The translations under genes and the position numbers were made by a program. The notes below the pieces were generated by a model, which did no database searches, was not told the DNA's origin, and was given only the letters and a program-made list of their open reading frames with translations. A stretch of DNA of 64,000 bases, taken from assembly GCA_028283765.1 (NCBI GenBank), contig JAPWJY010000008.1, positions 1,245,001-1,309,000 of the forward strand. The letters run 5' to 3'. Positions 2,169 through 17,278 of this stretch are shown here, piece by piece; the first letter of the stretch is position 1; the number at the start of each line of letters is the position of its first letter. The stretch is from Parvibaculaceae bacterium. Its GTDB lineage: Bacteria; Pseudomonadota; Alphaproteobacteria; Parvibaculales; Parvibaculaceae.

Positions 2169-2225
2169 TCTGGCCCGTGCGTACGCTTATGCCTGCACGG
2201 ATCGCCGATCTACGTCAAACGCCCC

Positions 2226-2241
2226 ATACCGGGGCCGGTAT
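2226..2241. promoter_or_regulatory. Palindrome ATACCGGGGCCGGTAT before urtA
   Basis: Two perfect 7-bp arms flank GG, 70 bp upstream of the urtA start, in the only intergenic space between the cas3 remnant and urtA. The position suits a regulator operator. No known consensus is claimed. Confidence 0.35.
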
Positions 2242-2310: not shown

Positions 2311-3516
2311 ATGATCACGAAGACGTCTCGCGTCGCCATTCTGGCGGCTGCGCTCATGGCCGGAACGGTTCTGTCTGGCATGGCTCACGCCGCCGACACC
2401 GTGAAGGTCGGTGTACTGCAATCCTTGAGCGGCACCATGGCGATCAGCGAAGTCACGGTGAAGAACGCCGAGATGATGGCGATCGATGAAATCAACGCCT
2501 CGGGCGGCGTGCTCGGCAAGCAGATCGTGCCGGTCGTCGAGGACGGCGCGTCGGACCCCGCCATCTTCGCACAGAAGGCGACCAAGCTCGTACAGGATGA
2601 CGAGGTCGTCACCGTCTTCGGCGGCTGGACCTCGGCCAGCCGCAAGGCGATGCTGCCGGTGTTCCAGCGGCTGAAGAGCCTGCTGTGGTATCCGGTGCAG
2701 TTCGAGGGCAACGAGTGTTCGCCCGCCATCATGTATTCGGGCGCGCAGCCGAACCAGCAGATGCTGCCGGCCTATGACTGGGCCAAGGAAAAGGGCTTCA
2801 AGACCTTCTTCCTGCTCGGCTCGGACTATGTGTTTCCGCGCACGGCCAATCTGATCGCCAAGAAGCATATCGAGAAGGACAAGCTGACGCTGGCGGGCGA
2901 GGAATATGTGCCGCTGGGCGGCACGGATTTCAGCGCCGTCATCGCCAAGATCCAGGCCGCCAAGCCGGACGTGATCTTCAGCACTCTGAATGGAGACAGC
3001 AACGTCTCCTTCTTCAAGCAGATGGGTGCGGCAGGCCTTCCTTCGGCCAAGCTGCCGGTCATGTCCTTCTCCATCGGCGAACAGGAAGCCCAGGCCATGG
3101 GCCCCTCGCTGGTTGAGGGCAGCTATGCCGCATGGAACTATTTCCAGAGCATCGACACCCCTGAGAACAAGAAGTTCGTTGCGGCCTATCAGGCGAAGTT
3201 CGGCGCCAATGCCGCCGTCACCGACCCGATGGTCCATGGCTATATCGACGTTTATGTCTGGAAGGCCGCCGTCGAGAAGGCGGGCACGTTCGACGCCAAG
3301 AAGGTGCGCGCCGCCGCCGTGGAGCTTGCCGCCCTGCCGAGCCCGATGGGTCCGGTCAAGTTCGCCAGGAACCAGAGCCTGATCCAGACCGCCTATATCG
3401 GCGAACTCGATCCCAAGGGCCAGTTCAAGATCCTCTGGACCTCGAAGGGCGCCATCGATCCCGAGCCCTATGATCCGGTCGCCTTCCCCGGCAAGAAGTG
3501 CGTGATCAAGCACTGA
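2311..3516 (+). CDS. urtA: Urea ABC transporter substrate-binding protein
   Basis: The 401-aa periplasmic protein captures urea for the UrtBCDE transporter. Residues 1-28 are a Sec signal peptide ending GMAHA, before ADTVKVGVLQSLSGTMAISE, the characteristic start of mature UrtA. WYPVQFEGNECSPAIMYSGA and LLGSDYVFPRTAN are UrtA-type segments distinguishing it from generic Liv-type amino-acid binders. GGGGGAAG precedes the ATG. It is the first gene of urtABCDE and lies convergent to the urease operon, which supports urea as the substrate. Confidence 0.95.
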   Translation: MITKTSRVAILAAALMAGTVLSGMAHAADTVKVGVLQSLSGTMAISEVTVKNAEMMAIDEINASGGVLGKQIVPVVEDGASDPAIFAQKATKLVQDDEVVTVFGGWTSASRKAMLPVFQRLKSLLWYPVQFEGNECSPAIMYSGAQPNQQMLPAYDWAKEKGFKTFFLLGSDYVFPRTANLIAKKHIEKDKLTLAGEEYVPLGGTDFSAVIAKIQAAKPDVIFSTLNGDSNVSFFKQMGAAGLPSAKLPVMSFSIGEQEAQAMGPSLVEGSYAAWNYFQSIDTPENKKFVAAYQAKFGANAAVTDPMVHGYIDVYVWKAAVEKAGTFDAKKVRAAAVELAALPSPMGPVKFARNQSLIQTAYIGELDPKGQFKILWTSKGAIDPEPYDPVAFPGKKCVIKH

Positions 3517-3589
3517 GGAATGATCCGGGTGCGGGACGCAAAGCGCCCCGCACCGCTTTCACGCCGTTCCAGACCGATAGGGGTACCTG

Positions 3590-4498
3590 ATGGGCGAACT
3601 GACGCTCTTTGTCGGCCAGATATTCAACGGTTTCAGCGTCGCTTCGCTGTTCGTCCTTTCGGCGCTCGGTCTGGCGCTCAGCTTCGGCCTGATGCGCGTC
3701 ATCAATATGGCCCATGGCGAAATGCTGATGCTGGGCGGCTATCTCGCCTATCTCACGCTGATGGTCGTGCCCGGGCCGCTCGGCATTCTGGTGGCGCTGC
3801 CAGTCGCGTTTCTGGGCGCGGGGCTCGTCGGCGCGCTGCTGGAGGCGACGGTCATCCATCGCCTGTCTTCGCGTCCGCTCGATACGCTGCTCGCTACATG
3901 GGGCGTCAGCCTGATCTTCCAGCAGGGCGCGCGCAACATATTCGGGGCCATCGGTGTCGATGTCACCGCGCCCGCCTGGCTCAACCACACCATTTCCATT
4001 TCCGGCGGCCCGCTTGACGGGCTCACATTGCCGGCTACCCGCATCTTCATCATGGGGGTTGCCGTACTGGTGCTGGGCGGCCTTGCTCTCCTGCTTGCCA
4101 AAACCCGGATCGGCCTGCTCGTCCGCGCGGTCAATCAGGATCGCGAGACGGCGGCGGCCATGGGTGTCAATGCGCGCAAGGTCGATCTGATGGTCTTCGC
4201 GCTCGGCACCGGCGTCGCCGGGCTTGCGGGCGTGGTGCTCGCGCTGCTGGGGCCGGTCACGCCCAATGTCGGGCAGAGCTACATCGTGCCCGCGTTCCTC
4301 GTCGTCATTCTGGGCGGGCTTGGCAGCCTCGTCGGCACGGCCATCGCCTCGCTCATCATCGGGCTTTTTTCGGCGCTGGTGCAGATCTATGTCGATGTCA
4401 GCCTGTCGCAGGTGCTGCTGCTCGTCTTCGTCATCGCCTTTATCCAGTTTCGTCCCCAGGGCGTCATCGCGGTGCGCTCGCGCGCGCTCGACAGCTAG
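3590..4498 (+). CDS. urtB: Urea ABC transporter permease UrtB
   Basis: The 302-aa LivH-type inner-membrane permease has about eight hydrophobic segments. FGLMRVINMAHGEMLMLGGY near residue 35 is the family signature, and GGLGSLVGTAIASLIIG lies near the C-terminus. Some UrtB proteins carry a long periplasmic N-terminal domain; this one does not. An AGGGG ribosome site lies just before the ATG. It follows urtA after 73 bp and precedes urtC after 15 bp, in one operon. It pairs with UrtC to form the urea channel. Confidence 0.94.
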   Translation: MGELTLFVGQIFNGFSVASLFVLSALGLALSFGLMRVINMAHGEMLMLGGYLAYLTLMVVPGPLGILVALPVAFLGAGLVGALLEATVIHRLSSRPLDTLLATWGVSLIFQQGARNIFGAIGVDVTAPAWLNHTISISGGPLDGLTLPATRIFIMGVAVLVLGGLALLLAKTRIGLLVRAVNQDRETAAAMGVNARKVDLMVFALGTGVAGLAGVVLALLGPVTPNVGQSYIVPAFLVVILGGLGSLVGTAIASLIIGLFSALVQIYVDVSLSQVLLLVFVIAFIQFRPQGVIAVRSRALDS

Positions 4499-4513
4499 GG
4501 CAGGGGAGCCACC

Positions 4514-5575
4514 ATGCGTTTCACTTACGCCTCAGCCATCCCGGTCGCGATCATTGTTCTTGCCGCGGCCGCGCCATGGCTCATCTCCAGCTATGAGCTC
4601 AATCTCATGGCGCGCTTTCTGGCGCTGGCCATCCTCGCCATCGGGCTCGTGCTGGTCTGGGGCGAGGGTGGCATCCTGAGCCTGGGGCAAGGCGTGTTCT
4701 TCGGGCTGGGCGGCTATGCGCTGGCCATGCACCTGAAGCTGGTCATGCTGGACCCGGGTGACATTCCCGATTTCATGCAATGGAGCGGCCTTGAAAGCCT
4801 GCCATGGTGGTGGGTGCCGTTCGAGAATCCGGTCTGTGCGATCTTGGGTGTCGTGCTTGTGCCGGGCCTGTTCGCGGCGGGCTTTTCATGGCTGGTGTTC
4901 CGGCGGCGCGTCGGCGGGGTTTATTTCGCCCTGATTACCCAGGCGCTGGCGCTGGCCTTCTCCACCCTGCTGATCAGCCAGCAGGCCTATACGGGTGGCT
5001 TCAACGGCCTCACGGATTATTCGACGCTGCTGGGCTTCGATCTCGCCTCTGACGACATGATAGTCGCACTCTACTGGATCACGCTGGCGCTGGTCGTTGT
5101 CGCGTTCCTTGGCGTGCGCTTCCTGATGATGTCGCGTTTCGGCAAGCTGCTGCGTGCCACCCGCGATGGCGAGAACCGGGTCCGCTTTCTGGGCTATAAT
5201 CCAGCCCCCTACAAGGTGATTGCGTTCACCGTCGGAGCGGTGCTGGCGGGCATCTCCGGCGCGCTGTTCACGCTTCATGCGGGCGTCATTTCCCCGGCGC
5301 TCGTTGGCGTGGTGCCCTCCATCGAAATGGTGATCTGGGTTGCCGTAGGCGGCCGCAACTCGCTCTGGGGCGCTGTCATCGGGGCCTTGCTCATCAATTT
5401 CGCGCGCGATGAAATATCCTCCGCCTTTCCCAATATCTGGCTCTATGGCCTCGGGCTCATGTTCGTGCTCGTGGTGAGTTTCCTGCCGGATGGCATCGCC
5501 GGATTGTTTGCCGCGAACAGGAGCGGCCGGATGGCGCATCTTCTTAAAACACTCAGGCCCGGGAGAGCGGCATGA
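4514..5575 (+). CDS. urtC: Urea ABC transporter permease UrtC
   Basis: The 353-aa LivM-type membrane permease is the second half of the urea channel. Visible segments include VWGEGGILSLGQGVFFGLGG in the N-terminal half, YNPAPYKVIAFTVGA in the cytoplasmic coupling region, and WVAVGGRNSLWGAVIGALLI near the end. Length and order are normal for UrtC. The stop overlaps the urtD start by 4 nt (ATGA, 5572-5575), indicating coupled translation. Confidence 0.94.
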   Translation: MRFTYASAIPVAIIVLAAAAPWLISSYELNLMARFLALAILAIGLVLVWGEGGILSLGQGVFFGLGGYALAMHLKLVMLDPGDIPDFMQWSGLESLPWWWVPFENPVCAILGVVLVPGLFAAGFSWLVFRRRVGGVYFALITQALALAFSTLLISQQAYTGGFNGLTDYSTLLGFDLASDDMIVALYWITLALVVVAFLGVRFLMMSRFGKLLRATRDGENRVRFLGYNPAPYKVIAFTVGAVLAGISGALFTLHAGVISPALVGVVPSIEMVIWVAVGGRNSLWGAVIGALLINFARDEISSAFPNIWLYGLGLMFVLVVSFLPDGIAGLFAANRSGRMAHLLKTLRPGRAA

Positions 5576-6372
5576 ACATCATGGTGCCGGTCGAGCATGA
5601 GACGCCGGACCCCCGGCTGCTGCTGGCCGTCGATGGCGTGACCGTCGATTTCGACGGCTTCAAGGCACTCAACAATTTTTCCATGACGCTCGACCGCGGC
5701 AGCCTGCGCGTCCTGATCGGCCCGAACGGCGCGGGCAAGTCCACGCTCTGCGACACGATCATCGGCCGGGTGAGGGCGACCTCGGGCCGGGTCATCTTCA
5801 AGGGCGAGGAAATCACCCGCCTGCCGGAGGATGAGATCGTGCGCCGGGGCATCTGCCGCAAGTTCCAGACGCCGGGCATTCTCCCGAGCCTCACCGTGCG
5901 CGACAATCTCGCCATCGCCGCCCAGCGCGACCGGCGCTGGTGGCGTTCCTTCGGTCTCGATATACGCGGCACGGAACGCGAGCGCGTGGATGAAGTGCTG
6001 GAGCAGGTGGGGCTCACGGATCGCCAGCATGAAACCGCCTCGTTGCTTGCCCATGGCGAAAAGCAGTGGCTTGAAATCGGCATGGTGGTGGCGACGCAGG
6101 CGGATCTTCTGCTGCTCGACGAGCCGACTGCGGGCATGGGGCCTGCCGAGACGAGCCGGACGGCGGAACTGATCCGCTCCCTGCTCGGCCAGCACACGGT
6201 GCTGGTCATCGACCATGACATGAGCTTCGTCGAACAGCTCGACGGGCGGGTGACGGTGCTCCATCAGGGGCAATTTTTGAAAGAGGGCAGCGTTTCGGAA
6301 ATCCGCAATGATCCCGAAGTTGCCGCCGTTTATCTGGGACGTGCCAAAGATGACGCCGCTCCTCACGCTTGA
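5572..6372 (+). CDS. urtD: Urea ABC transporter ATP-binding protein UrtD
   Basis: The 266-aa LivG-like ATPase has Walker A GPNGAGKST, Walker B LLLLDEPTAGM and the switch His in VLVIDHDMSF. The signature loop reads LAHGEKQWLEIGM instead of LSGGQ, which is the usual UrtD form. FQTPGILPSLTVRDNL is the Q-loop region. It couples ATP hydrolysis to UrtBC together with UrtE. Its end overlaps the chosen urtE start by 23 nt. Confidence 0.94.
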   Translation: MNIMVPVEHETPDPRLLLAVDGVTVDFDGFKALNNFSMTLDRGSLRVLIGPNGAGKSTLCDTIIGRVRATSGRVIFKGEEITRLPEDEIVRRGICRKFQTPGILPSLTVRDNLAIAAQRDRRWWRSFGLDIRGTERERVDEVLEQVGLTDRQHETASLLAHGEKQWLEIGMVVATQADLLLLDEPTAGMGPAETSRTAELIRSLLGQHTVLVIDHDMSFVEQLDGRVTVLHQGQFLKEGSVSEIRNDPEVAAVYLGRAKDDAAPHA

Positions 6373-7066
6373 GAATGTTGCCACCGCCTATGGCCAGAGC
6401 CGTGTGCTGTGGGATGTGAACATGACCATCGCGCAGGGCTCCGCCGTCGCGCTGATCGGGCGCAATGGTGTCGGCAAGACGACGCTTCTGCGCACTATCG
6501 TCGGCGCACAGAGGCTGACCGGCGGCAAGCTTGTCTTTAAGGGCGAGGATGTCTCGGCCCATAAATCCTATGAGCGCGCGCGCGCCGGCATCGGCTTCGT
6601 GCCGCAGGGCCGCCATGTTTTTCCGCACATGACGGTGGCGGAAAATCTGCTGGTCGGCCTGTCGGCGCAGGCGGGAAGGAGCGAGGCGGCAAGTCCCGAT
6701 GTGCCGGACTATATCTTCGATCTCTTTCCCAAGCTGGTGCAGATCAAGGACCGCAAGGCTGGCGTTCTCTCCGGCGGCGAGCAGCAGCAACTGGCCATCG
6801 GCCGGGCATTGGCCGGGCGCCCCAGCCTGCTGTTGCTGGACGAGCCGACCGAAGGCATCCAGCCCTCCGTCGTCCAGCAGATCGAGGCGGCGCTGCGCCG
6901 CATCCGCACGGAACTGGGCGTGACCATTCTGATCGTCGAGCAATATCTCGATTTCGCCTGGTCCTTTGCCGACAGCTATTGCGTCATGCAGCGCGGCGAG
7001 ATCATCCGGCAGGGCAGCACGCAGACCGAAACCGCCGCAGAAGTGGCTCATCTGGTGAATATCTAG
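6350..7066 (+). CDS. urtE: Urea ABC transporter ATP-binding protein UrtE
   Basis: The 238-aa LivF-like ATPase has Walker A GRNGVGKTT, signature LSGGEQQQLAIGRAL and Walker B LLLLDEPTEGIQPS. The open frame begins at 6308, but ATG at 6350 (MTPLLTLENVATAYGQS) starts exactly where LivF/UrtE proteins start. The extra 14 residues would come from urtD-overlapping sequence. It is the last gene of urtABCDE and ends 17 bp from the convergent response-regulator gene; I see no terminator in that gap. Confidence 0.93.
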   Translation: MTPLLTLENVATAYGQSRVLWDVNMTIAQGSAVALIGRNGVGKTTLLRTIVGAQRLTGGKLVFKGEDVSAHKSYERARAGIGFVPQGRHVFPHMTVAENLLVGLSAQAGRSEAASPDVPDYIFDLFPKLVQIKDRKAGVLSGGEQQQLAIGRALAGRPSLLLLDEPTEGIQPSVVQQIEAALRRIRTELGVTILIVEQYLDFAWSFADSYCVMQRGEIIRQGSTQTETAAEVAHLVNI

Positions 7067-7083
7067 GGATATTTGGGGCGCGA

Positions 7084-8004
7084 TTATCCCCGGGCGGAAA
7101 GCGCCCGCACCGCCAGCGCTGCCGCCGAGGCGCGGTTCTCCACGCCGAGCTTTGTAAAAATCTGCTCCAGATGCTTGTTCACCGTGCGCGGGCTGATGCC
7201 GAGAATCTCGCTGATGTCGCGGTTGGACTTGCCCTTGGCGATCCAGATCAGCACTTCCGCCTCGCGCATGGTCAGCGACAGATATTGCTTGAGGAAAATC
7301 TCTTCCTTGCCTGCGCCCGTTTCGGTCAGACGGAACAGATATTCGTTTGGGCCGATGGCGCTGAGATAGGAAAATTCGAGTGTGCGGCCCGCGATGACGA
7401 GGCTGACGGTGGGGGCGGTCACGCTCTTGCCCCGCTTCAGGGCATCGAGCGCCGAGGAGATGGCGGGTGGCAGGCTCATCGTGCCCGGCTCGCCAAGGCC
7501 CGAGAGAAGCTTGGTCGCCTGAGGTGTGCACCACAGGAGACGGCCTTCCTCGTCGATGGTCAGCAGAAAGCGCCCGGTGGCGTCGAGCGCGATGCGCGCG
7601 CTCTGGGTCGCCCGCGCGTTCGCCAGATGCACATGGATGCGCGCGATCAACTCGTCGACCACGATCGGCTTGGTCACATAATCGACGCCGCCCGCCTGCA
7701 AACCTTCAAGCACATGCTGGGTTTCGCTCAGGCCCGTCATGAATATGACAGGCAGGTGAGCCAGATGGTTGATGCGTTTCAACCGGCGGCAGGTCTCGAA
7801 ACCGTCCATGCCGGGCATGATCGCATCCATCAGCACGAGATCGGGCGTGATCTGGTCGAGCAGCGTCAGCGCGCCTTCGCCGTCGATGGCGACGAGCACG
7901 GTGATGCCCGCCTGTTCCAGCGCGTCGGTGAGGAAGCCGAGCGTGTCGGGCGTGTCGTCCACCACCAGCACGGTGTCGCGGTTTCTGGTTTCGTCAATCA
8001 TCAT
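7084..8004 (-). CDS. Response regulator, receiver plus LuxR-type HTH
   Basis: The roughly 306-aa protein has an N-terminal receiver with the acidic pair VLVVDD, phospho-acceptor Asp in LVLMDAIMPG and the conserved Lys in YVTKPI. A PAS-like middle (FLLTIDEEGRLLWCTPQA) follows. The C-terminal LuxR HTH reads LTMREAEVLIWIAKGKSN and ISPRTVNKHLEQIFTKLG. The start (ATGATG at 7999-8004) overlaps the end of the upstream sensor gene by 11 nt, so the two are coupled partners. It probably binds promoters in the urea/urease block; the target is not visible. It is last in the ureDABCEFGJ-kinase-regulator operon. Confidence 0.9.
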   Translation of the reverse strand: MMIDETRNRDTVLVVDDTPDTLGFLTDALEQAGITVLVAIDGEGALTLLDQITPDLVLMDAIMPGMDGFETCRRLKRINHLAHLPVIFMTGLSETQHVLEGLQAGGVDYVTKPIVVDELIARIHVHLANARATQSARIALDATGRFLLTIDEEGRLLWCTPQATKLLSGLGEPGTMSLPPAISSALDALKRGKSVTAPTVSLVIAGRTLEFSYLSAIGPNEYLFRLTETGAGKEEIFLKQYLSLTMREAEVLIWIAKGKSNRDISEILGISPRTVNKHLEQIFTKLGVENRASAAALAVRALSARG

Positions 8005-11000
8005 GGGGCACAATGGTCTTGTCGTCATTCCGGGCTTCATCGGTCGTGACGGTTTCCTCCAGCAGGTCCATATAGCGTTTGAGCTGGAAGCTGCGCACCA
8101 GGCTCCGCGCCCTTTCCACGAAAGCGCCGGTCTCGGGCATTTCCTGCTCGATCTCCTTCAGCTTCGCCTCGATCCCGCGCACATAGCCGATGCGGCCAAG
8201 CTGGCGCAAATCGTCGATGTCGCGAGGTGCCGGATAATGCGTCCCGCTGCGGACGAGGGGGGCGGGCACGTCCGGCGCGCTGGCCTCGTAAAGCCATTCA
8301 AGGCCAAGCAGGGCCTGCAATCGCTCCAGCAGATGGCGGATGTCGATGGGTTTGACCAGAAAATCATCGTGCGGCATGTCCGCTGCGCTGCTTTCCCGGA
8401 AGTCATGGACATTGGCGGAAACGATCATGATCGGCACCTGATGTCCCATGCCTCGCAACAGGCGCGCCGTCTCCCAGCCATCGATGCCCGGCATGGAAAG
8501 ATCGAGCATGATCAGGTCCGGTTCCAGATCCTGCGCACGTTCGATCGCCTGTTCGCCGTTGGCGGCGGTCACGAGGATGAAGCCCAGCGGCGACAGGATT
8601 TCCTGGAGCAGGTCCAGATGCGAGGCGTCGTCGTCGGCGGCGAGCACGGTCAGCGGCGGCCCGGCATAGGCCTTGATCCGCCGTTCATGGTCCGGCCCGT
8701 CGTCGGAATGCATGGCTTCCGACAGGAACAGGCGCACCCGGAAACGGCTGCCCTGTCCCACGGCGCTTTCCACCGCGATCTCGCCGCCCAGAATTTCGCT
8801 CAGCAGTTTGCTGATGGTCAGGCCAAGGCCTGTGCCGGTAATGGCGTTGGCGCTCGGCAGATGGCCGCGCTCGAACGGCTCGAAGATGCGTTCCATATCG
8901 TCGGGCCGGATGCCCATGCCCGTGTCCGAGACCTCGAAATCGGCAACCTGGTTGCGATAGCGCACCTTGAACGAGACATGGCCCTTGTCGGTGTATTTGA
9001 TCGCATTGGAGAGCAGGTTGATCAGGATCTGGCGCAGCCGCTTTTCATCGGTATAGACGTGCACCGGCAGATGGCCCGGGCGCTCATAATGGAAGGCGAT
9101 GCCGCGCGCCGACGCCTGAAGGCGGAACATGTCCGCGATCTGGTCGAGAAACTCGATCAGGTTGACCTTGTCCCTGAAGATCCGGAGCGAACCCGTTTCG
9201 ATCTTGGAGATGTCGAGCAGGCCATCGACCAGATTGGCCAGATGCTCGGCGCTGCGGCGGATCACTTTTACCGATTCAGGCGCGCTGATGGAGGCGTCGC
9301 GCTCCAGCAACTGGGCATAACCGAAGATGGAGTTGAGCGGCGTGCGGATTTCATGGCTCACGCCCACGATATAGCGGCTCTTGGCGATATTGGCGGCCTC
9401 GGCCACTTCCTTGGCCTTCTGGAGTTCGGCGTCGGTGCGCTCATGGGCCTCGATCTCGTTCATCAGCATGATCGTCTGGCGCTCGGATTCCTCCTCCGCC
9501 ACGCGCCGGCTTGCCTGGGCCAGCACCAGAATCCAGGCCGCCACGCCCGAGACGACCAGCAGGCTGAAAAAGACGATCCACAAGGTGTTGCGAATGATGT
9601 CCGCATTGTCCGGCGCAGCCTGGCTGTACTGGTGAAAGATGAAGGTCAGAAGCCCGCCGATGGACAGGATGAACAGGAAGAAGATGCCGAGAAAATGCCC
9701 CAGCCGCGTGTGCAGGCTGTCGACCACGGAAGCGGGCAGCAGTTTCCACAGAAGACCGTTGATCTGGTCGGTGAAGCGGCTCTGCGGCTTGCACATGTCA
9801 TGGCAGCGCGCGTCGAGCGTGCAGCAGAGCGAGCAGATCGCCCCTTCATAGGCCGGGCAGTAGGCCATGTCGCTGCGCTCGAAGGCGTTCTCGCAGATCG
9901 AGCATTTCACCTCGCCGGTCCCGGCGGGAAGGCCCGTCGCCGGACGCGCCATGTAATAGCGCCCGCCGGTCGCCCAGGCGATCAGCGGCGCGCTGAGGAA
10001 GGCGGCGACGAGCCCTGCGAAAGGGGCCAGCGCCTGCGGCACCTGTCCCCAGAATCCGGTGAAGAGCGCGGTCGAGACGACCAGCGAAATGGCCATCGAG
10101 CCGATGCCGACCGGGTTGATGTCGTAAAGATGCGCGCGGCGGAATTCGATGGTAGGCGGGCTGAGGCCCAGCGGCTTGTTGATCACGAGATCCGCCGCCA
10201 GTGCCCCGATCCAGGCGACGGCGAAGTTGGAATAGAGGCCCAGTATGTTCTCGATCACCTTGAAGATGCCGATTTCCATCAGCATGAGCGCCAGCAGCAC
10301 GTTGAAGGTGAGCCAGACGACGCGGCCCGGATGGCTGTGGGTCAGGCGCGAGAAGAAGTTGGACCAGGCGATGGAGCCCGCATAGGCGTTGGTCACATTG
10401 ATCTTCATCTGGCAGACCACGACGAAGATGCCGGTCAGCACGATCGCCACGGTCGGCGATTTCATGATCTCGGTAAAGGCGATCCGGTAAAGCTCCGTCG
10501 GCTGGGCCGCGAGTTCCTTCGGCGTGCCGTGCCCAAGCGCCACATAGGCGAGAAAGGAGCCCGCCAGCAGCTTCGCCCCGCCCATGAAGATCCACCCCGG
10601 GCCTGCGACGATGAGCGCGCTCCACCAGGCGAAACGGCTGGTGCGCGCGCGATCGGGCAGGAAGCGAAGGTAATCGACCTGTTCGCCGATCTGCGGGATC
10701 AGCGACAGTAGCACGGAGGCGGCAAGGCCGAAGAGCAGGATGTTGAAGCTGCCGTCAGCGGGGCCGAGGTCACCGGCGTAATGGGTCCAGCCTTCCAGCG
10801 AGGAGAAGCCCTTGACTCCGATATAAACCAGCGGCCCGAGCTGGAGCAGAAGCCATACCGGCTGGGTCCACATCTGGAACCGGCTGATGATCCGGATGCC
10901 ATAGGCTGCGATGGGAATGACCAGCAGCGCGCTGATGACATGACCGATGGCGAGCGGAATGCCAAGGCACATTTCCAGCGCCATGGACATGATGCTGGCC

Positions 11001-11398
11001 TCCACCGCGAACAGGATGAAGGTGAACGAGGCGTAGATCAGCGAGGTCACGGTCGAGCCGATATAGCCGAAGCCCGCCCCGCGCGTCAGCAGATCTATGT
11101 CGACGTTGAACCTGGCGGCATAAAAGCAGATCGGCAGGCCGGTCAGGAAGATCAGAAGGCTGACAGCGAGGATGGCGAGCGCCACATTGGAAAAGCCGTA
11201 GTTCAGCGTGATGCTGCCGCCGATGGCCTCGCAGGCCAGAAACGAGATCGCCCCGAACGCGGTATTGCCGACCCGGAAGGCGGACCAGCGCCGGGCCCGC
11301 TCCGCCGTATAGCGCAACGCGAAATCCTCAAGCGTCTGGTTGGCGACCCATTGATTATATTGCCGCCGCACCCGGATGACGCGCTGGCGTCCCGTCAT
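7994..11398 (-). CDS. NCS1-type permease fused to hybrid histidine kinase
   Basis: This is a 1134-aa fusion. Residues about 30-480 form a twelve-helix permease of the purine/cytosine/allantoin (NCS1) type, for example GSITLNYGFSNVALA and KINVTNAYAGSIAWSNFF. Residues 499-536 hold eight Cys (499, 502, 514, 522, 525, 526, 532, 536), a likely metal or Fe-S site. Two more helices lie near 570-590 and 605-628. The kinase core has the H-box SHEIRTPLNS (His682), N-box ILINLLSNAIKYTD and G-boxes DTGMGI and GTGLGL. A receiver follows with Asp966 (IMLDLSMPG) and Lys1016, then a helical tail. It likely senses a transported compound such as urea or a urea precursor and signals to the coupled LuxR-type regulator; the ligand is inferred. 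Confidence 0.9.
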   Translation of the reverse strand: MTGRQRVIRVRRQYNQWVANQTLEDFALRYTAERARRWSAFRVGNTAFGAISFLACEAIGGSITLNYGFSNVALAILAVSLLIFLTGLPICFYAARFNVDIDLLTRGAGFGYIGSTVTSLIYASFTFILFAVEASIMSMALEMCLGIPLAIGHVISALLVIPIAAYGIRIISRFQMWTQPVWLLLQLGPLVYIGVKGFSSLEGWTHYAGDLGPADGSFNILLFGLAASVLLSLIPQIGEQVDYLRFLPDRARTSRFAWWSALIVAGPGWIFMGGAKLLAGSFLAYVALGHGTPKELAAQPTELYRIAFTEIMKSPTVAIVLTGIFVVVCQMKINVTNAYAGSIAWSNFFSRLTHSHPGRVVWLTFNVLLALMLMEIGIFKVIENILGLYSNFAVAWIGALAADLVINKPLGLSPPTIEFRRAHLYDINPVGIGSMAISLVVSTALFTGFWGQVPQALAPFAGLVAAFLSAPLIAWATGGRYYMARPATGLPAGTGEVKCSICENAFERSDMAYCPAYEGAICSLCCTLDARCHDMCKPQSRFTDQINGLLWKLLPASVVDSLHTRLGHFLGIFFLFILSIGGLLTFIFHQYSQAAPDNADIIRNTLWIVFFSLLVVSGVAAWILVLAQASRRVAEEESERQTIMLMNEIEAHERTDAELQKAKEVAEAANIAKSRYIVGVSHEIRTPLNSIFGYAQLLERDASISAPESVKVIRRSAEHLANLVDGLLDISKIETGSLRIFRDKVNLIEFLDQIADMFRLQASARGIAFHYERPGHLPVHVYTDEKRLRQILINLLSNAIKYTDKGHVSFKVRYRNQVADFEVSDTGMGIRPDDMERIFEPFERGHLPSANAITGTGLGLTISKLLSEILGGEIAVESAVGQGSRFRVRLFLSEAMHSDDGPDHERRIKAYAGPPLTVLAADDDASHLDLLQEILSPLGFILVTAANGEQAIERAQDLEPDLIMLDLSMPGIDGWETARLLRGMGHQVPIMIVSANVHDFRESSAADMPHDDFLVKPIDIRHLLERLQALLGLEWLYEASAPDVPAPLVRSGTHYPAPRDIDDLRQLGRIGYVRGIEAKLKEIEQEMPETGAFVERARSLVRSFQLKRYMDLLEETVTTDEARNDDKTIVPHDD

Positions 11399-11449: not shown

Positions 11450-12031
11450 TTAAGCAAAAATCATGCCGAGCCCCGCCAGCGCGATGATGGCGCCCACGGC
11501 GCGGGTCAGTTTTTCGGCCGATATGCGCCGCGTGGCAAGGGCGACGCCGAGCCCGCAGCCATGGAGCAGGGCCGTCGCGATGGTAAAGCCGGTGGCGAAT
11601 TCCATGCCCGAGGCGCTGGCCGGAATTTCCAGCCCGTGGGCATAGCCGTGGGCCAGCCCGAAGGCGGCGATGAGCGCAGCGCCAAGACCGATGTGCAGTT
11701 TCAGGTTGAGCGCGGTGGCGACGCCGAGCACGACCACCGACAGAAGAATGACCGTCTCGACGGCGGGGATCGCGAGCCCGCTCATGCCGAGCACGCCGCC
11801 CGCGATCATGGCGGTGACGAAGCTCGCGGGCCAGACCCAGAGCGAGCGGTTGCCCGCAAGCCCTGCCCACAGGCCGACCGCGACCATGGCGAGCAGATGA
11901 TCTGCCCCGGTCAGGGGATGGATGAAACCGGCGCTGAAACCGTTCACGCCATGGCCGGGGTGCGCCATGGCGGGGGCGGCGATCAGCAGCATCGGCGCGG
12001 TAAAAGCGAAAAGGCGGGAAAGCTGGCGCAT
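11450..12031 (-). CDS. ureJ: HupE/UreJ family nickel permease-like protein
   Basis: The 193-aa membrane protein has an N-terminal signal (residues 1-23, ending PAMA), then HPGHGVNGFSAGFIHPLTGADHLLAM, given here as family motifs HPGH and HPLTGADH, and later HGYAHG. These His motifs define HupE/UreJ, thought to move nickel for hydrogenase or urease. About six helices follow. It sits 37 bp after ureG and before the sensor kinase on the same strand, so urease nickel supply is the likely role. Confidence 0.88.
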   Translation of the reverse strand: MRQLSRLFAFTAPMLLIAAPAMAHPGHGVNGFSAGFIHPLTGADHLLAMVAVGLWAGLAGNRSLWVWPASFVTAMIAGGVLGMSGLAIPAVETVILLSVVVLGVATALNLKLHIGLGAALIAAFGLAHGYAHGLEIPASASGMEFATGFTIATALLHGCGLGVALATRRISAEKLTRAVGAIIALAGLGMIFA

Positions 12032-12068: not shown

Positions 12069-12701
12069 TTAGGCGGCGGGGCGGGCGCTCAGGCCGCCCG
12101 TGATTTCGATGAAGCGGGCCACCTCGGCCACGCCCTGTCCGGCCTTGATGTTGGTGAAGTGGAACGGGCGCTCGGCGCGCATCCGCTTCGCGTCGCGGTC
12201 CATGACCTCAAGGCTGGCGCCGACCAGGGGCGCAAGGTCGATCTTGTTGATGACCAGCAGGTCGGAGCGCGTGATGCCGGGCCCGCCCTTGCGGGGGATC
12301 TTGTCGCCCGCCGAAACGTCGATGACATAAAGGGTGAGGTCGGCCAGTTCCGGGCTGAAGGTGGCGGCGAGATTATCCCCGCCGGACTCGATCAGGATGA
12401 GGTCGAGGCCGGGAAAGCGCCTGTGCATCTCGGCGACCGCCGCGAGGTTCATCGAGGCGTCCTCGCGGATCGCGGTGTGCGGGCAGCCGCCGGTTTCGAC
12501 GCCGATGATCCGCTCCGGCGGCAGCGAGCCTGCCCGGGTCAGAAATTCGGCGTCTTCCCTGGTGTAGATGTCGTTGGTGATGGCCGCGATGTCATAGCTG
12601 CTGCGGAAATGCTTGCAGAGCGCGTCCATCAGGGCGGTTTTGCCGGAGCCGACCGGGCCGCCGATGCCCACGCGCAGGGGGCCTGTGTGGGATGGGCTCA
12701 T
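12069..12701 (-). CDS. ureG: Urease accessory GTPase UreG
   Basis: The 210-aa SIMIBI-class GTPase drives nickel insertion into urease. It has P-loop [13 protein letters not shown], the metal-binding Cys-Pro-His in [24 protein letters not shown], and [17 protein letters not shown]. Length is typical. The start overlaps the ureF stop (ATGA at 12698-12701). It acts with UreD and UreF on apo-urease and may receive nickel from UreE. Confidence 0.96.
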
Positions 12702-13402
12702 GTGCGGAACAACCTCGTGTACTGGGTTTCGTGCTGCATCGACGCCATGTCGGCGCGGAAGGTGGCGGACCCCATCTGCCCGAAGGGGTCCCGGTCGCTA
12801 ATCGTGTCGAGAAGGGCGGCGGCCTGCGTCACGGTTTCGGTGACGAGGCTCCGCAGATGCGCCATGGCAAGCTGGCCATCGGTCTGGCCGAGCGGCACCA
12901 GCCGCTGGGCGGCGGAGACTATGTTGGCGACAAAACCGTGGAGGTAGGCGGTGAGCGCCAGCGTCAGCGGGATGGCCGCCCCGGCGGCGGTTACGGCAAC
13001 CACGACGGGATAGCCAAGATCGCCATCCGCGACCTCATCCAGCATGTGGAGCGAAGGGGCGTCTTCCACGGCCCGGACAATGCGCCGGAACGCGGCTCCC
13101 TGCGCCATCGTCTCGATGCGGCGCTCGCGGGAGGGCTGGGCGGCGGCGGCAAGTTCGGCGAGATCGAGCAGGGCGGACATATCCCCGCGCCGGGTGGCGT
13201 CGTAGGCGTGGGTGAAGAGCACGGCGTCGTTCCAGCCCGCGCCATGATTGAGCAGGTCTTCGAGCCATGCTTCCAGTCCTGCGCGGCTGATCACATCTGC
13301 GGCCTCGACCGCCCACTCGAGCCCGCCCGAATGGCTGAACGCCCCCACCGGATAGGAAGGCGAGAGCCAGGAAAGAAGCTGGTAGAGTGCGGTTTCAATC
13401 AT
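12698..13402 (-). CDS. ureF: Urease accessory protein UreF
   Basis: The 234-aa UreF is part of the UreD-F-G nickel insertion complex. [25 protein letters not shown] near the N-terminus carries the family core ([17 protein letters not shown]). The open frame extends upstream to 13504 but only as a Met/Gly-rich out-of-frame reading of the ureE His-rich tail. ATG at 13400-13402 ([10 protein letters not shown]) is the correct start and overlaps the ureE stop by 8 nt. It is coupled to ureE and ureG. Confidence 0.94.
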
Positions 13403-13919
13403 GCCCATGCCCATGCCCGTGGTGCCCATGGCCATGCTCATGAGCGTGTTCATGCTCATGGTGATGATGCCCGTGATCTCCGCCCGCCTCGCTGTAGGCC
13501 CCACCCTCCGGGTCGAACGGCGCGCGGATCGCGGCGGCGGTGCCGCCCAGCCCCTGCACCATGACGGCGATCACATGGTCGGCGCGGATGCGCAGCCGGT
13601 CACCCATGAGTTGGGTCGGCAGATGCCGGTTGCCCAGATGCCAGGCGATGCGGACGAGGCCCGCGAGCGTGGGGGCGGTGATTTCATGCAGGTCTTCGTC
13701 AGCGGCTTCCACCAGCACGGTCTGCCCGTTGGTAAGCACCAGCCCGTCGCCGTGGCGCAGCTGCGTCGCTTCCGGCAGGTCGAGCAATATCTGGTGGCCC
13801 TTCAGCGTTTCGAGCATGATCCGCCGGCGGTGGCGGCGGTCCTGATCGAGAACGATGCGGTCATCCGCGATCAGCGGATCGAAATCACCGGCGCGGGCAA
13901 TGCGGTAGGCACGCTGCAT
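13395..13919 (-). CDS. ureE: Urease nickel metallochaperone UreE with His-rich tail
   Basis: The 174-aa UreE has an N-terminal peptide-binding-like domain (residues 1-70). The C-terminal metal-binding domain includes [14 protein letters not shown] and [12 protein letters not shown], with the conserved dimer-bridging His in the latter. The last about 27 residues contain 15 His in HG/HE repeats, a nickel-storage tail like that of Klebsiella UreE. It delivers Ni2+ to UreG/urease in the cytoplasm. It sits between ureC (10 nt away) and ureF (overlapping). Confidence 0.95.
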
Positions 13920-13928
13920 GGAGACACC

Positions 13929-15638
13929 TCAGAACAGGAAATAACGCTGCGCCATGGGCAGCACATCGGCAGGCGGGCAGGTCAGGAGTTCACCGTCCGC
14001 ATGAACCTCATAGGTTTCGGAATCGACCTCGATGAAGGGGGTGGCGTCGTTCAGGATCATGGAGGATTTGCCGATGCGCCGGGTGTTTTCCACCGCGACG
14101 ATATGGCGTGACAGGCCCAGCCGCCGGGCAATGTCGGTTTCGAGCGCGGCCTGCGACACGAAGCTGATCGTCGTCTGCGCCGCCGCCCGTCCCAGCGCGC
14201 CGAACATGGGCCGGTAATGCACCGGCTGGGGCGTCGGGATCGAGGCGTTGGGGTCGCCCATCAGCGCGTGGGAGATCATGCCGCCCTTGATGACGAGATC
14301 CGGCTTCACGCCGAAAAAGGCCGGCGACCAGAGCACAAGGTCCGCGAACTTGCCCACCTCGATGGAGCCGACCTCATGGGCGAAGCCCTGCGCGATGGCC
14401 GGATTGATCGTGTATTTGGCGATATACCGGCGCACGCGCAGATTGTCGTTCTCGCCGCGCTCCTCGCGGAGTCGTCCGCGCTGCGCCTTCATCTTGTGGG
14501 CGGTCTGCCATGTGCGGATGATGACCTCGCCGACGCGCCCCATGGCCTGGCTGTCCGACGAGATGATCGAGAATGCCCCCAGATCGTGGAGAATATCCTC
14601 GGCCGCGATCGTCTCGCGGCGGATGCGGCTTTCGGCGAAGGCCACGTCCTCCGGGATCGAGGGGTCCAGATGGTGGCAGACCATCAGCATGTCGAGATGC
14701 TCGTCCACCGTGTTGACGGTGAAAGGCCGGGTCGGGTTGGTGGAGGAGGGAATGACATTGGCGAGGCCCGCCACCTTGATGATGTCGGGCGCATGGCCGC
14801 CGCCCGCACCTTCGGTGTGAAAGGCATGGATGGTCCGCCCCTTGAAGGCGGCGATGGTGTCCTCGACAAAGCCGCTCTCGTTCAGCGTGTCGGTGTGGAT
14901 CATGACCTGGACGTCATATTCGTCCGCCACGTTCAGGCAGCAGTCGATGGAGGCGGGCGTCGTGCCCCAGTCCTCATGCAGCTTCAATGAGGAGGCGCCC
15001 GCGCGGATCTGCTCGATCAGCGCTTCAGGCCGGCTGCTGTTGCCCTTGCCGGAAAAGGCGAGGTTGACTGGCAGGCCTTCGGCCGCCTGCAACATGCGTT
15101 CGATATGCCATGGGCCGGGGGTGCAGGTGGTGGCGTTGGTGCCGGTCGCGGGGCCGGTGCCGCCGCCGACCATGGTGGTGATCCCGCTCGAGATGGCGTC
15201 CTCGATCTGCTGGGGGCAGATGAAATGGATATGGGCGTCGACGCCGCCCGCCGTCAATATCCGGCCTTCGCCCGCGATCACTTCCGTGCCGGGGCCGATG
15301 ATGATGGTGACGCCCGGCTGGGTGTCGGGATTGCCCGCCTTGCCGATGGCGGCGATCCGCCCGCCGCGCAACCCCACGTCTGCCTTGACGATGCCCCAGT
15401 AATCGATGATGACGGCATTGGTGATGACGGTATCGACGGTGCCCATGGCGCGCGATAGCTGGGACTGGCCCTGTCCGTCGCGGATGACCTTGCCTCCGCC
15501 GAACTTCACTTCCTCGCCATAGATCGTGTGGTCGTGCTCGATCTCGATGATGAGACCGGTATCGGCGAGGCGCAGCCGGTCACCGGTGGTGGGGCCGAAC
15601 ATGTCGGCATAGGCGGCGCGCGAGATGCGGGTGCTCAT
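13929..15638 (-). CDS. ureC: Urease alpha subunit
   Basis: The 569-aa catalytic subunit hydrolyses urea to ammonia and carbamate at a dinickel centre. Visible ligands and active-site elements are GGVDAHIHF (His pair), [12 protein letters not shown] with the carbamylated Lys, the [14 protein letters not shown] segment with a nickel-ligand His, and the mobile-flap Cys/His in [13 protein letters not shown]. It has full length with no missing key residue. It overlaps the ureB stop by 4 nt (15635-15638). Confidence 0.98.
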
Positions 15639-15973
15639 GGCTGTTTTGTCCCTTCCCCGGCGGTGAGCGGGCCCATGATGTCGCCGCGAAAGCCGATGAT
15701 GGTCCGTGTGCCGCCGAAGGGCACCAGCGTCACCTCCCGGCGCTGGCCGGGCTCGAAGCGAACCGCCGTGCCTGCGGCGATGTCGAGGCGGCAGCCAAGG
15801 GCCTGATTGCGATCGAAGCTGAGCGCAGGGTTGGTCTCGGCGAAATGATAATGGCTGCCGATCTGGATGGGTCTGTCGCCGGTATTGGCGACCATCAGCG
15901 TCACGGTGGGCCGGCCCGCATTGAGTTCGATCTCGCCTGACGCGGGGATAAGTTCGCCCGGTATCATGCTCAT
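15635..15973 (-). CDS. ureB: Urease beta subunit
   Basis: The 112-aa structural subunit has [18 protein letters not shown] at the start and later [17 protein letters not shown] and [13 protein letters not shown], all standard UreB. The frame opens at 16054, but ATG at 15971-15973, preceded by AGGAGA, gives the family's normal N-terminus; the extra upstream codons overlap ureA. It is separate from ureA, as in most Gram-negative ureases. Confidence 0.95.
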
Positions 15974-15983
15974 GGCGTCTCTC

Positions 15984-16286
15984 CTATCGGACCGGCTGAT
16001 GAACGGTGACGAGCTTGGTGCCGTCAGGAAAGGTCGCCTCCACCTGCACGTCATGGATCATGCTGGCGATCCCTTCCATCACCTGATCGCGGCTCACCAC
16101 CCGCGCGCCCGCCTCCATCAGATGGGCCACGCTCAGGCCGTCGCGGGCGCCCTCCATCACGAAATCCGAAATGAGGGCGATGGTTTCGGGATAGTTCAGC
16201 TTTACGCCGCGCTCCAGCCTCTTGCGCGCGACCATGGCGGCCATGGCGATCAGCAGCTTGTCTTTTTCCCGGGGTGTGAGATTCAA
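15984..16286 (-). CDS. ureA: Urease gamma subunit
   Basis: The 100-aa subunit starts [20 protein letters not shown], the near-invariant UreA N-terminus, and includes [20 protein letters not shown]. It assembles with UreB and UreC into the urease trimer of trimers. It lies 11 nt after ureD and 10 nt before ureB in the same operon. Confidence 0.97.
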
Positions 16287-16297
16287 GGCAGCTCTCC

Positions 16298-17155
16298 TCA
16301 GCAGGACCAGACGCGCGGCAGGGGGCGGCCCGCGCGCAGGGTGGACAGGATGGATGTCATGTCGCGGCGCAGTTCATGGCCGTCAGGCGCGGCGAAGCGC
16401 ACGGCGAGAAGCCCGTTCCAGTGGCTGGCCGCGATTGCGCCGCATGCCTCGGCGCTCCGTTCCCGCACAGTTTCAAGGTGGCTCTCCGCATCGCCGGATA
16501 CGAGGATGAGCGTCGCGCTCGCCCGTGCGCCCGCGCCGATGGCCTTGCGCTGCAAAAGAGCCGATATGGGGCCATCCAGTTCCAGCGCGTCGGCATAGAT
16601 CAGCCGTCCGTCGCGGCGGATGCGCCAGCCTTCGCGATAATGGCCTTCCTCCATGGTTTCTCCCATGGCGGCGCGGCCGAAAACCGTGGCCTCGACCCCG
16701 AGAAAGCGGCTCGTCGCGCTCATCTCGACCTGCATGTCGCGCCGGAGCGAGGCCCGGTTGAACAGGATGGTTTCCTGCGGCATCCATTCGGCACTGCTGT
16801 GCGGGGCCAGCCTGATCGTGGTTTTGATGGCGGCGTGGCCGTCGCGCGCGCGGTAGATTTTTTCAGCTGCCTGCCCGGTCAGCGTGCCGCTCGCATGGTC
16901 CTGCCATTCGGCATTGATCGTAAGCGCATCGCCGCCGGTCAGGCCGCCGGCCGTGTTCATCATCACGGCGCAGGGGCCGCGGGAGGCGGGGTCCTGCGGC
17001 CAGCGAACCCTCAGGCAGCCTGACTGATAGGCGCGGGCAAGCCTTGTACCGGTGCCGGTGCCCGCAAAGACGAGGTCGATCTGCCCCTTGCTGCGGGCAA
17101 GCGCGGGCAGGGGGGCGTCAATGGATTGCGTCCGGCTTTGCCGCCGGTCGGACAT
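16298..17155 (-). CDS. ureD: Urease accessory protein UreD
   Basis: The 285-aa UreD (UreH) binds apo-urease and recruits UreF and UreG for nickel insertion. Typical segments are [43 protein letters not shown] and [15 protein letters not shown]. It is the first gene of the minus-strand urease operon. Its upstream region (17156-17280) must hold the operon promoter; I could not identify a confident -35/-10 pair there. Confidence 0.94.
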
Positions 17156-17228: not shown

Positions 17229-17243
17229 CCCCACCCTATGGGG
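17229..17243. promoter_or_regulatory. Inverted repeat upstream of ureD
   Basis: CCCCA and TGGGG arms are separated by 5 bp, 74-88 bp before the ureD start. It could be an operator of the urease operon; the arms are short and GC-rich, so support is weak. Confidence 0.2.
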
Positions 17244-17278
17244 CAAACAACGTATGGACGTCGCGAACCGGCCGGGCA

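Follow-up and report, generated by a model that had tools for sequence, protein, structure and literature searches.

A predicted NCS1-like permease-histidine kinase fusion linked to genes for urea and small-amide use in Pseudomonadota

UreR is a one-component, AraC-type protein through which urea induces urease. The induction of amidase by amides involves the binding-protein/antiterminator pair AmiC/AmiR (PMC13209695). Both systems differ from the sensor described here in that they are not membrane kinases. In Pseudomonas veronii, an amiE-fmdA-fmdB-urtABCDE cluster has been proposed to function in formamide uptake (PMC13209695, 2026), and in Ectopseudomonas a kinase and a LuxR regulator have been noted beside urtABCDE III, near fmdA (PMC13296017, 2026). 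In the accessible parts of these two papers on Urt-FmdA-AmiF clusters, the permease domain of the kinase and the operator are not recognised.

Several histidine kinases are known to carry a transporter as their sensory part. The SLC5 fusions CbrA, CrbS and RpuS (PMC13022988, PMC5715377, PMC9100948) join a LeuT-fold transporter to a histidine kinase and often control a nearby uptake or utilisation pathway, and in the kinase Ks-Amt5 a recruited nitrogen-nutrient transporter does the sensing (PMC5764959). The protein that we describe here is similar to both. It differs from CbrA, CrbS and RpuS in that its transporter part is predicted to be NCS1-like and not SLC5, its pathway is that of urea and amides, and a cysteine module with two helices stands at the STAC position; Pfam reported neither the SSS nor the STAC family in this kinase. 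Ks-Amt5 differs in having an Amt/Rh fold and a different ligand, with no Cys module mentioned in the accessible text of PMC5764959. A search of the open-access literature found no report of an NCS1-kinase fusion.

The window (the whole stretch of DNA that was analysed, 64,000 nucleotides from a Parvibaculaceae bacterium) encodes a hybrid histidine kinase of 1134 aa on its minus strand (7994..11398), which we describe as an NCS1-like transceptor. Pfam places HisKA at residues 673-736 (9191..9382, minus strand), HATPase_c at 783-892 (8723..9052, minus strand) and a receiver domain at 918-1027 (8318..8647, minus strand), which is the order of a hybrid kinase; the phosphoacceptor, H682, is invariant in the homologue alignment. 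Residues 1-660 gave nothing significant in Pfam. They contain the permease domain (residues about 20-486, 9941..11341), the eight-Cys module (C499-C536, 9791..9904) and, beginning at 565, two extra hydrophobic helices (9515..9706), all encoded on the minus strand. A predicted transporter fold and a signalling domain lie on one chain, as in a transceptor. Beyond the receiver, residues about 1057-1116 (window 8050-8230) form a helical tail with a conserved LGRIGYVRGI... stretch and without a Pfam match.

The next gene on the same strand (7084..8004) encodes a LuxR/NarL-type response regulator with a receiver and a GerE HTH (Pfam). Its likely start is an internal ATG at 8004, which gives an overlap of 11 nt with the kinase gene; the junction reads CATGATGATTGA. 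A longer regulator ORF from 8040 is an alternative. A preliminary description, made from the letters of the sequence, had listed the 1134-aa frame, its domain order and this overlap. The ORF, the Pfam domains, the eight Cys and the two helices were all found, and the overlap holds with the start at 8004.

The pair ends a leftward unit of 10 kb, ureDABCEFGJ-kinase-regulator, that faces the rightward unit urtABCDE. On the minus strand lie ureD (16298..17155), ureA (15984..16286, 100 aa, TTG start), ureB (15635..16054, start uncertain), ureC (13929..15638), ureE (13395..13919), ureF (12698..13504, start uncertain), ureG (12069..12701) and ureJ (HupE/UreJ, 11450..12031), the last separated from the kinase gene by 51 nt. 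The translation of this ureA served as the UreA query and found UreA in other ure clusters. On the plus strand lie urtA (2311..3516), the substrate-binding protein of a urea ABC transporter (TIGR03407 above cut-off), urtB (3590..4498), urtC (4514..5575), urtD (5572..6372) and urtE (6308..7066, true start probably later). The urt unit (2311-7066) converges on the regulator gene, and their ends are 17 nt apart. The kinase had been placed inside the urease operon. It is indeed on the same strand and downstream of the ure genes and ureJ; the kinase-regulator pair is the 3' end of the cluster and does not lie within it.

The fold of the permease part was judged from an AF2 model of residues 1-665 built from 38 sequences (mean pLDDT 77, pTM 0.75). 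A full-length AF2 model from three sequences (pLDDT 38.8) was discarded. The known structures that it matched best, over residues about 22-486, were CodB (7qoa; Z 33.0, rmsd 3.6, 397 aligned, residues 22-481) and Mhp1 (4d1a; Z 29.7, rmsd 4.0, 421 aligned, residues 28-486), with 15-17% identity in the alignments. CodB and Mhp1 differ from the window protein in being stand-alone transporters of cytosine or hydantoins, without a kinase. The first non-NCS1 structure followed below them at Z 25.8, and NCS1 structures outranked SLC5 structures. PF02133 had no match at E<=1 in the window kinase and none in its whole genome, and sequence searches of the PDB matched no transporter. A stand-alone homologue (P0004) that is 41% identical to the window domain scored 38.1 bits with PF02133, against a cut-off of 23.5. 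Because the window protein itself does not match PF02133, we call its permease part, as modelled, NCS1-like and a divergent branch. The NCS1-type permease named in the preliminary description is thus backed by the predicted fold and by a homologue that passes PF02133, though Pfam does not see it on the protein itself.

This sensor family is common. A permease-plus-Cys profile had matches in 68 of 397 Pseudomonadota genomes that were not chosen for linkage; three of the matches were weak and to other genes, and 65 were strong with long open frames, which puts the family in 16% of the sampled genomes, or about one in six. The neighbourhoods of 69 of these loci were classified by the marker genes present in about 8 kb, and 66 had urt, ure or formamidase genes. 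Formamidase FmdA and/or an amide-type Urt marked 41 loci (about 60%), and urease and/or a urea-type Urt marked 25. The three loci with neither marker type within that distance were L129 (cut by a contig end), L148 and L158. A LuxR-type regulator homologue adjoins the kinase in 66 of the 69. In another collection, of 80 named loci from Bradyrhizobium, Azospirillum, Steroidobacter, Marinobacter, Alcanivorax and others, the kinase-regulator pair is mostly divergent from urtABCDE. The module is also present in 535 plasmid records, 342 of them from Klebsiella; in one Klebsiella plasmid locus (L087:14001-18264), the kinase, the regulator, an amide-type Urt and AmiF lie beside the clpK/hsp20 heat-resistance genes. 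The pair is annotated as 'ATP-binding protein', 'response regulator', 'ArcB' or 'hybrid sensor histidine kinase'.

Based on these results, we think it probable that the protein is an NCS1-type transceptor for urea and small amides and that it acts on urt and ure by way of the LuxR-type regulator. That a permease and a kinase are joined here as a transceptor had been proposed from the window sequence. The search for its architecture in other genomes, which located it in those 65, supports the proposal: its homologues are found consistently with uptake and hydrolysis of urea and small amides and not with unrelated pathways, and the predicted operator precedes both ureD and urtA (see below). The proposal had left the ligand broad, as a nitrogen compound that might be urea, allantoin or a purine. 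The likely ligands are urea and amides with a short chain, for example formamide; about 60% of loci are of the formamidase or amide type. Allantoin and purines are unlikely because the linkage is to urea and amides. Gene linkage of this sort points to a pathway and not to a ligand, and what the kinase senses could be a different state of that pathway.

The strongest evidence that the permease domain might handle urea and formamide comes from stand-alone relatives that take the place of urt. In four loci (L217, L249-L251), an eight-Cys stand-alone permease replaces urt between the kinase-regulator pair and FmdA/AmiF, and in Acinetobacter baumannii a four-Cys stand-alone permease is divergent from the pair. 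Other relatives stand in urease clusters. Those of Klebsiella and Acinetobacter are about 535 aa long, have four Cys and no kinase, and are 41-44% identical over the permease and the first Cys pairs. The gene follows ureG as the last of the urease cluster in Klebsiella pneumoniae, also follows ureG in five genomes of one family, and precedes ureE at the head of the cluster in Acinetobacter ursingii. To our knowledge, the stand-alone 'cytosine/allantoin permease' of these Klebsiella and Acinetobacter clusters has no known function. The K. pneumoniae 'cytosine permease' (L086:11944-13551) is homologous to the permease domain of the sensor and carries a four-Cys tail; as its substrate, urea would be a better guess than cytosine. 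Separately, a more distant NCS1 gene in locus L191 (7949-12373) stands ahead of a gene for what looks like a fusion of two carbon-nitrogen hydrolases, and a UrtA/AmiC-like binding protein comes next; this may be another amide locus.

It is quite possible, although we lean somewhat against it, that the permease part only senses, binding urea or amides without moving them; this would be a narrower version of the transceptor reading. A dedicated transporter, either Urt or a stand-alone NCS1 homologue, almost always adjoins the kinase, so that transport by the sensor would be redundant, and Ks-Amt5 binds ammonium without translocating it (PMC5764959). However, the transmembrane motifs (QxKINVTNAYxGS and others) are conserved equally in fused and stand-alone forms, and histidine is transported by the SLC5 domain of CbrA (PMC13022988). 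The same constant partnership with an uptake system could also mean that urea is read indirectly, through neighbouring UrtA/UrtBC or the stand-alone permease, with the permease-like part acting as a docking or scaffold surface. We regard this as quite unlikely: the partner can be an amide-type Urt, a urea-type Urt or an NCS1 permease, or can lie several kb off, while the sensor remains similar, and docking does not require a conserved full transporter fold. As for specificity within the transceptor that we favour, no residue cleanly separated urea-type from formamide-type sensors in the four independent pairs that could be tested. The biased columns (169, 299, 392, 398) are few and not clearly in the pocket, and with only four independent pairs we make no claim about specificity residues.

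The Cys module follows the permease and places eight Cys (499, 502, 514, 522, 525, 526, 532 and 536) within 38 residues, as C-x2-C, C514, C522-SL-CC, C532 and C536. All eight are kept in each of the 187 complete fused homologues scored, which is more than chance would give; a lack of conservation, which would have spoken against the preliminary description, was not observed. The stand-alone permeases of urease clusters keep only the equivalents of 499, 502, 522 and 525, and those adjacent to formamidase keep all eight. The outer four Cys (514, 526, 532, 536) are therefore gained and lost together, which suggests that the module consists of two sites. In the AF2 model, a C-x2-C knuckle is followed by short strands and by a C-x2-C at the start of a helix, a treble-clef-like or RING-like layout. 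By sequence, the module gave only marginal matches to zinc-finger chains (E 1.4 and worse); the likeness to structural zinc folds is one of modelled layout. After the module come two strongly hydrophobic helices, which hydropathy puts at about 569-587 and 608-626 and the AF2 model at 565-590 and 596-664; the second continues into a signalling helix and HisKA.

The preliminary description had read the Cys cluster as a metal or redox input. Such a separate input, with the kinase combining urea with the state of a metal such as nickel or with redox state, would be in keeping with eight invariant Cys and with the adjacent ureJ, and urease requires nickel. We nevertheless think it unlikely. The same eight Cys occur in formamidase-type loci with no urease in view, four of the eight are already present in the stand-alone permeases of urease operons, and the C-x2-C, strands, C-x2-C arrangement is that of structural zinc folds. 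With its predicted treble-clef-like layout, the Cys module is more likely to bind metal for structure than to act as an input of its own, and this part of the description gained no support.

A TACG-N8-CGTA palindrome, with the consensus ATACGTCAATTGACGTAT, is present in 68 of 88 non-redundant kinase/uptake intergenic regions, compared with 0.5 expected; in shuffled intergenic sets, no dyad ever occurred in more than 8. The palindrome precedes urtA in several loci of one family (f33) although urtA is 2-6 kb from the kinase, and in A. baumannii it precedes the stand-alone permease. The window contains no perfect palindrome, only degenerate sites, which we ranked by scanning the 64 kb with a matrix derived solely from formamide-type loci in other genomes. 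The first-ranked site, ATACGTTGTTTGCCCCAT (minus-strand reading, 17238..17255), is 82 bp upstream of ureD and the second, CTACGTCAAACGCCCCAT (2210..2227), is 83 bp upstream of urtA, with scores of 5.8 and 4.6; the next score in the window is 1.5. Of 2000 permuted matrices, none had a top site in both promoters, and 32 had one in either of them. Both scores are far below the typical range (about 20-32), and the right halves of the two sites are degenerate. Several urease-type loci (such as L152, L175, L182 and L187) have no clear site by the matrix. In a second genome of the same genus (G001), the candidate site upstream of ureD is kept with one change; that assembly, which is 68% complete, had no match to the urtA region of the window. 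An element common to both promoters, TACGT-N5-GCCCCATA, occurs only at these two places in the 3.24-Mb genome, even with one mismatch. It was picked after seeing both promoters, and a match of 13 bases spread over two free blocks is no great rarity between two promoters, so we put the weight on the matrix from other genomes.

The palindrome might instead be the site of a different regulator, such as a global nitrogen regulator, with the kinase-regulator pair merely its neighbour. We consider a foreign operator improbable, however, because the motif travels with the pair across many orders and is found before three different uptake systems, and because the urease-operon stand-alone loci without a nearby kinase (L216, L252-L256) have no strong promoter site.

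We postulate that the transceptor works as follows. Urea would enter the NCS1-like pocket, and its binding, perhaps with transport, would shift the conformation of the permease. The cytosolic Cys module, probably with two metal ions, and the two helices would relay this shift to the kinase's dimerisation helix. Phosphate could then pass through the fused receiver, directly to the LuxR-type regulator encoded downstream, or by both routes. Some 80 bp upstream of both urtA and ureD, the regulator would bind a palindrome resembling ATACGTCAATTGACGTAT, and uptake and urease would be induced together. Since the kinase and regulator genes are the last of the ure unit, they would probably be induced too. 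In relatives, the same sensory device may serve formamide.

The permease-Cys module seems to have been used with several outputs. In a quick tree of 108 permease domains and an outgroup, the fused kinases and GGDEF fusions group apart from the stand-alones (branch support 99). Surroundings switch between urea-type and formamide-type about 8 times on this tree, so the urea or formamide label of a sensor is clustered and not fixed. In two loci (L218:6261-9857 and L219:6352-10020), Pfam identifies the fusion partner of the module as PAS-GGDEF-EAL, and L224:8023-11838 groups with these GGDEF-EAL fusions on the tree. Plain kinases carry the module in L186 (7002-9629), L188 (6966-9602) and L222, those of L186 and L188 being shorter and without a receiver; in L186, a gene whose start resembles an NtrC-type response regulator lies in 5846-7096. 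In L220 (5127-9212) the module is joined to a kinase, a receiver and Hpt, among several other signalling proteins. L186 and L188 have FmdA nearby, and L218, L219, L220, L222 and L224 are outside urea/amide loci.

These fusions raise a broader idea, to which we give only slightly less than an even chance. An NCS1-like permease, a two-metal Cys module and two helices might together constitute a class of receptor that has so far gone unrecognised and that serves as an interchangeable input for urea and small amides. This input would be placed on hybrid kinases, on plain kinases with an NtrC-like regulator, on a kinase-Hpt protein and on GGDEF-EAL proteins, and the stand-alone forms would then be a new kind of bacterial permease for urea and formamide.

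Many bacteria lack UreR, and the sensor is a candidate explanation of how they perceive urea or formamide and turn on urt, urease and formamidase. With it, the few transporter-kinase receptors on record would gain a second transporter family of the LeuT fold, and its natural stand-alone counterparts allow sensing to be compared with transport. The short operator that we predict is directly testable. The family is common in the sampled Pseudomonadota and on many Klebsiella plasmids, and yet it has been annotated only in generic terms.
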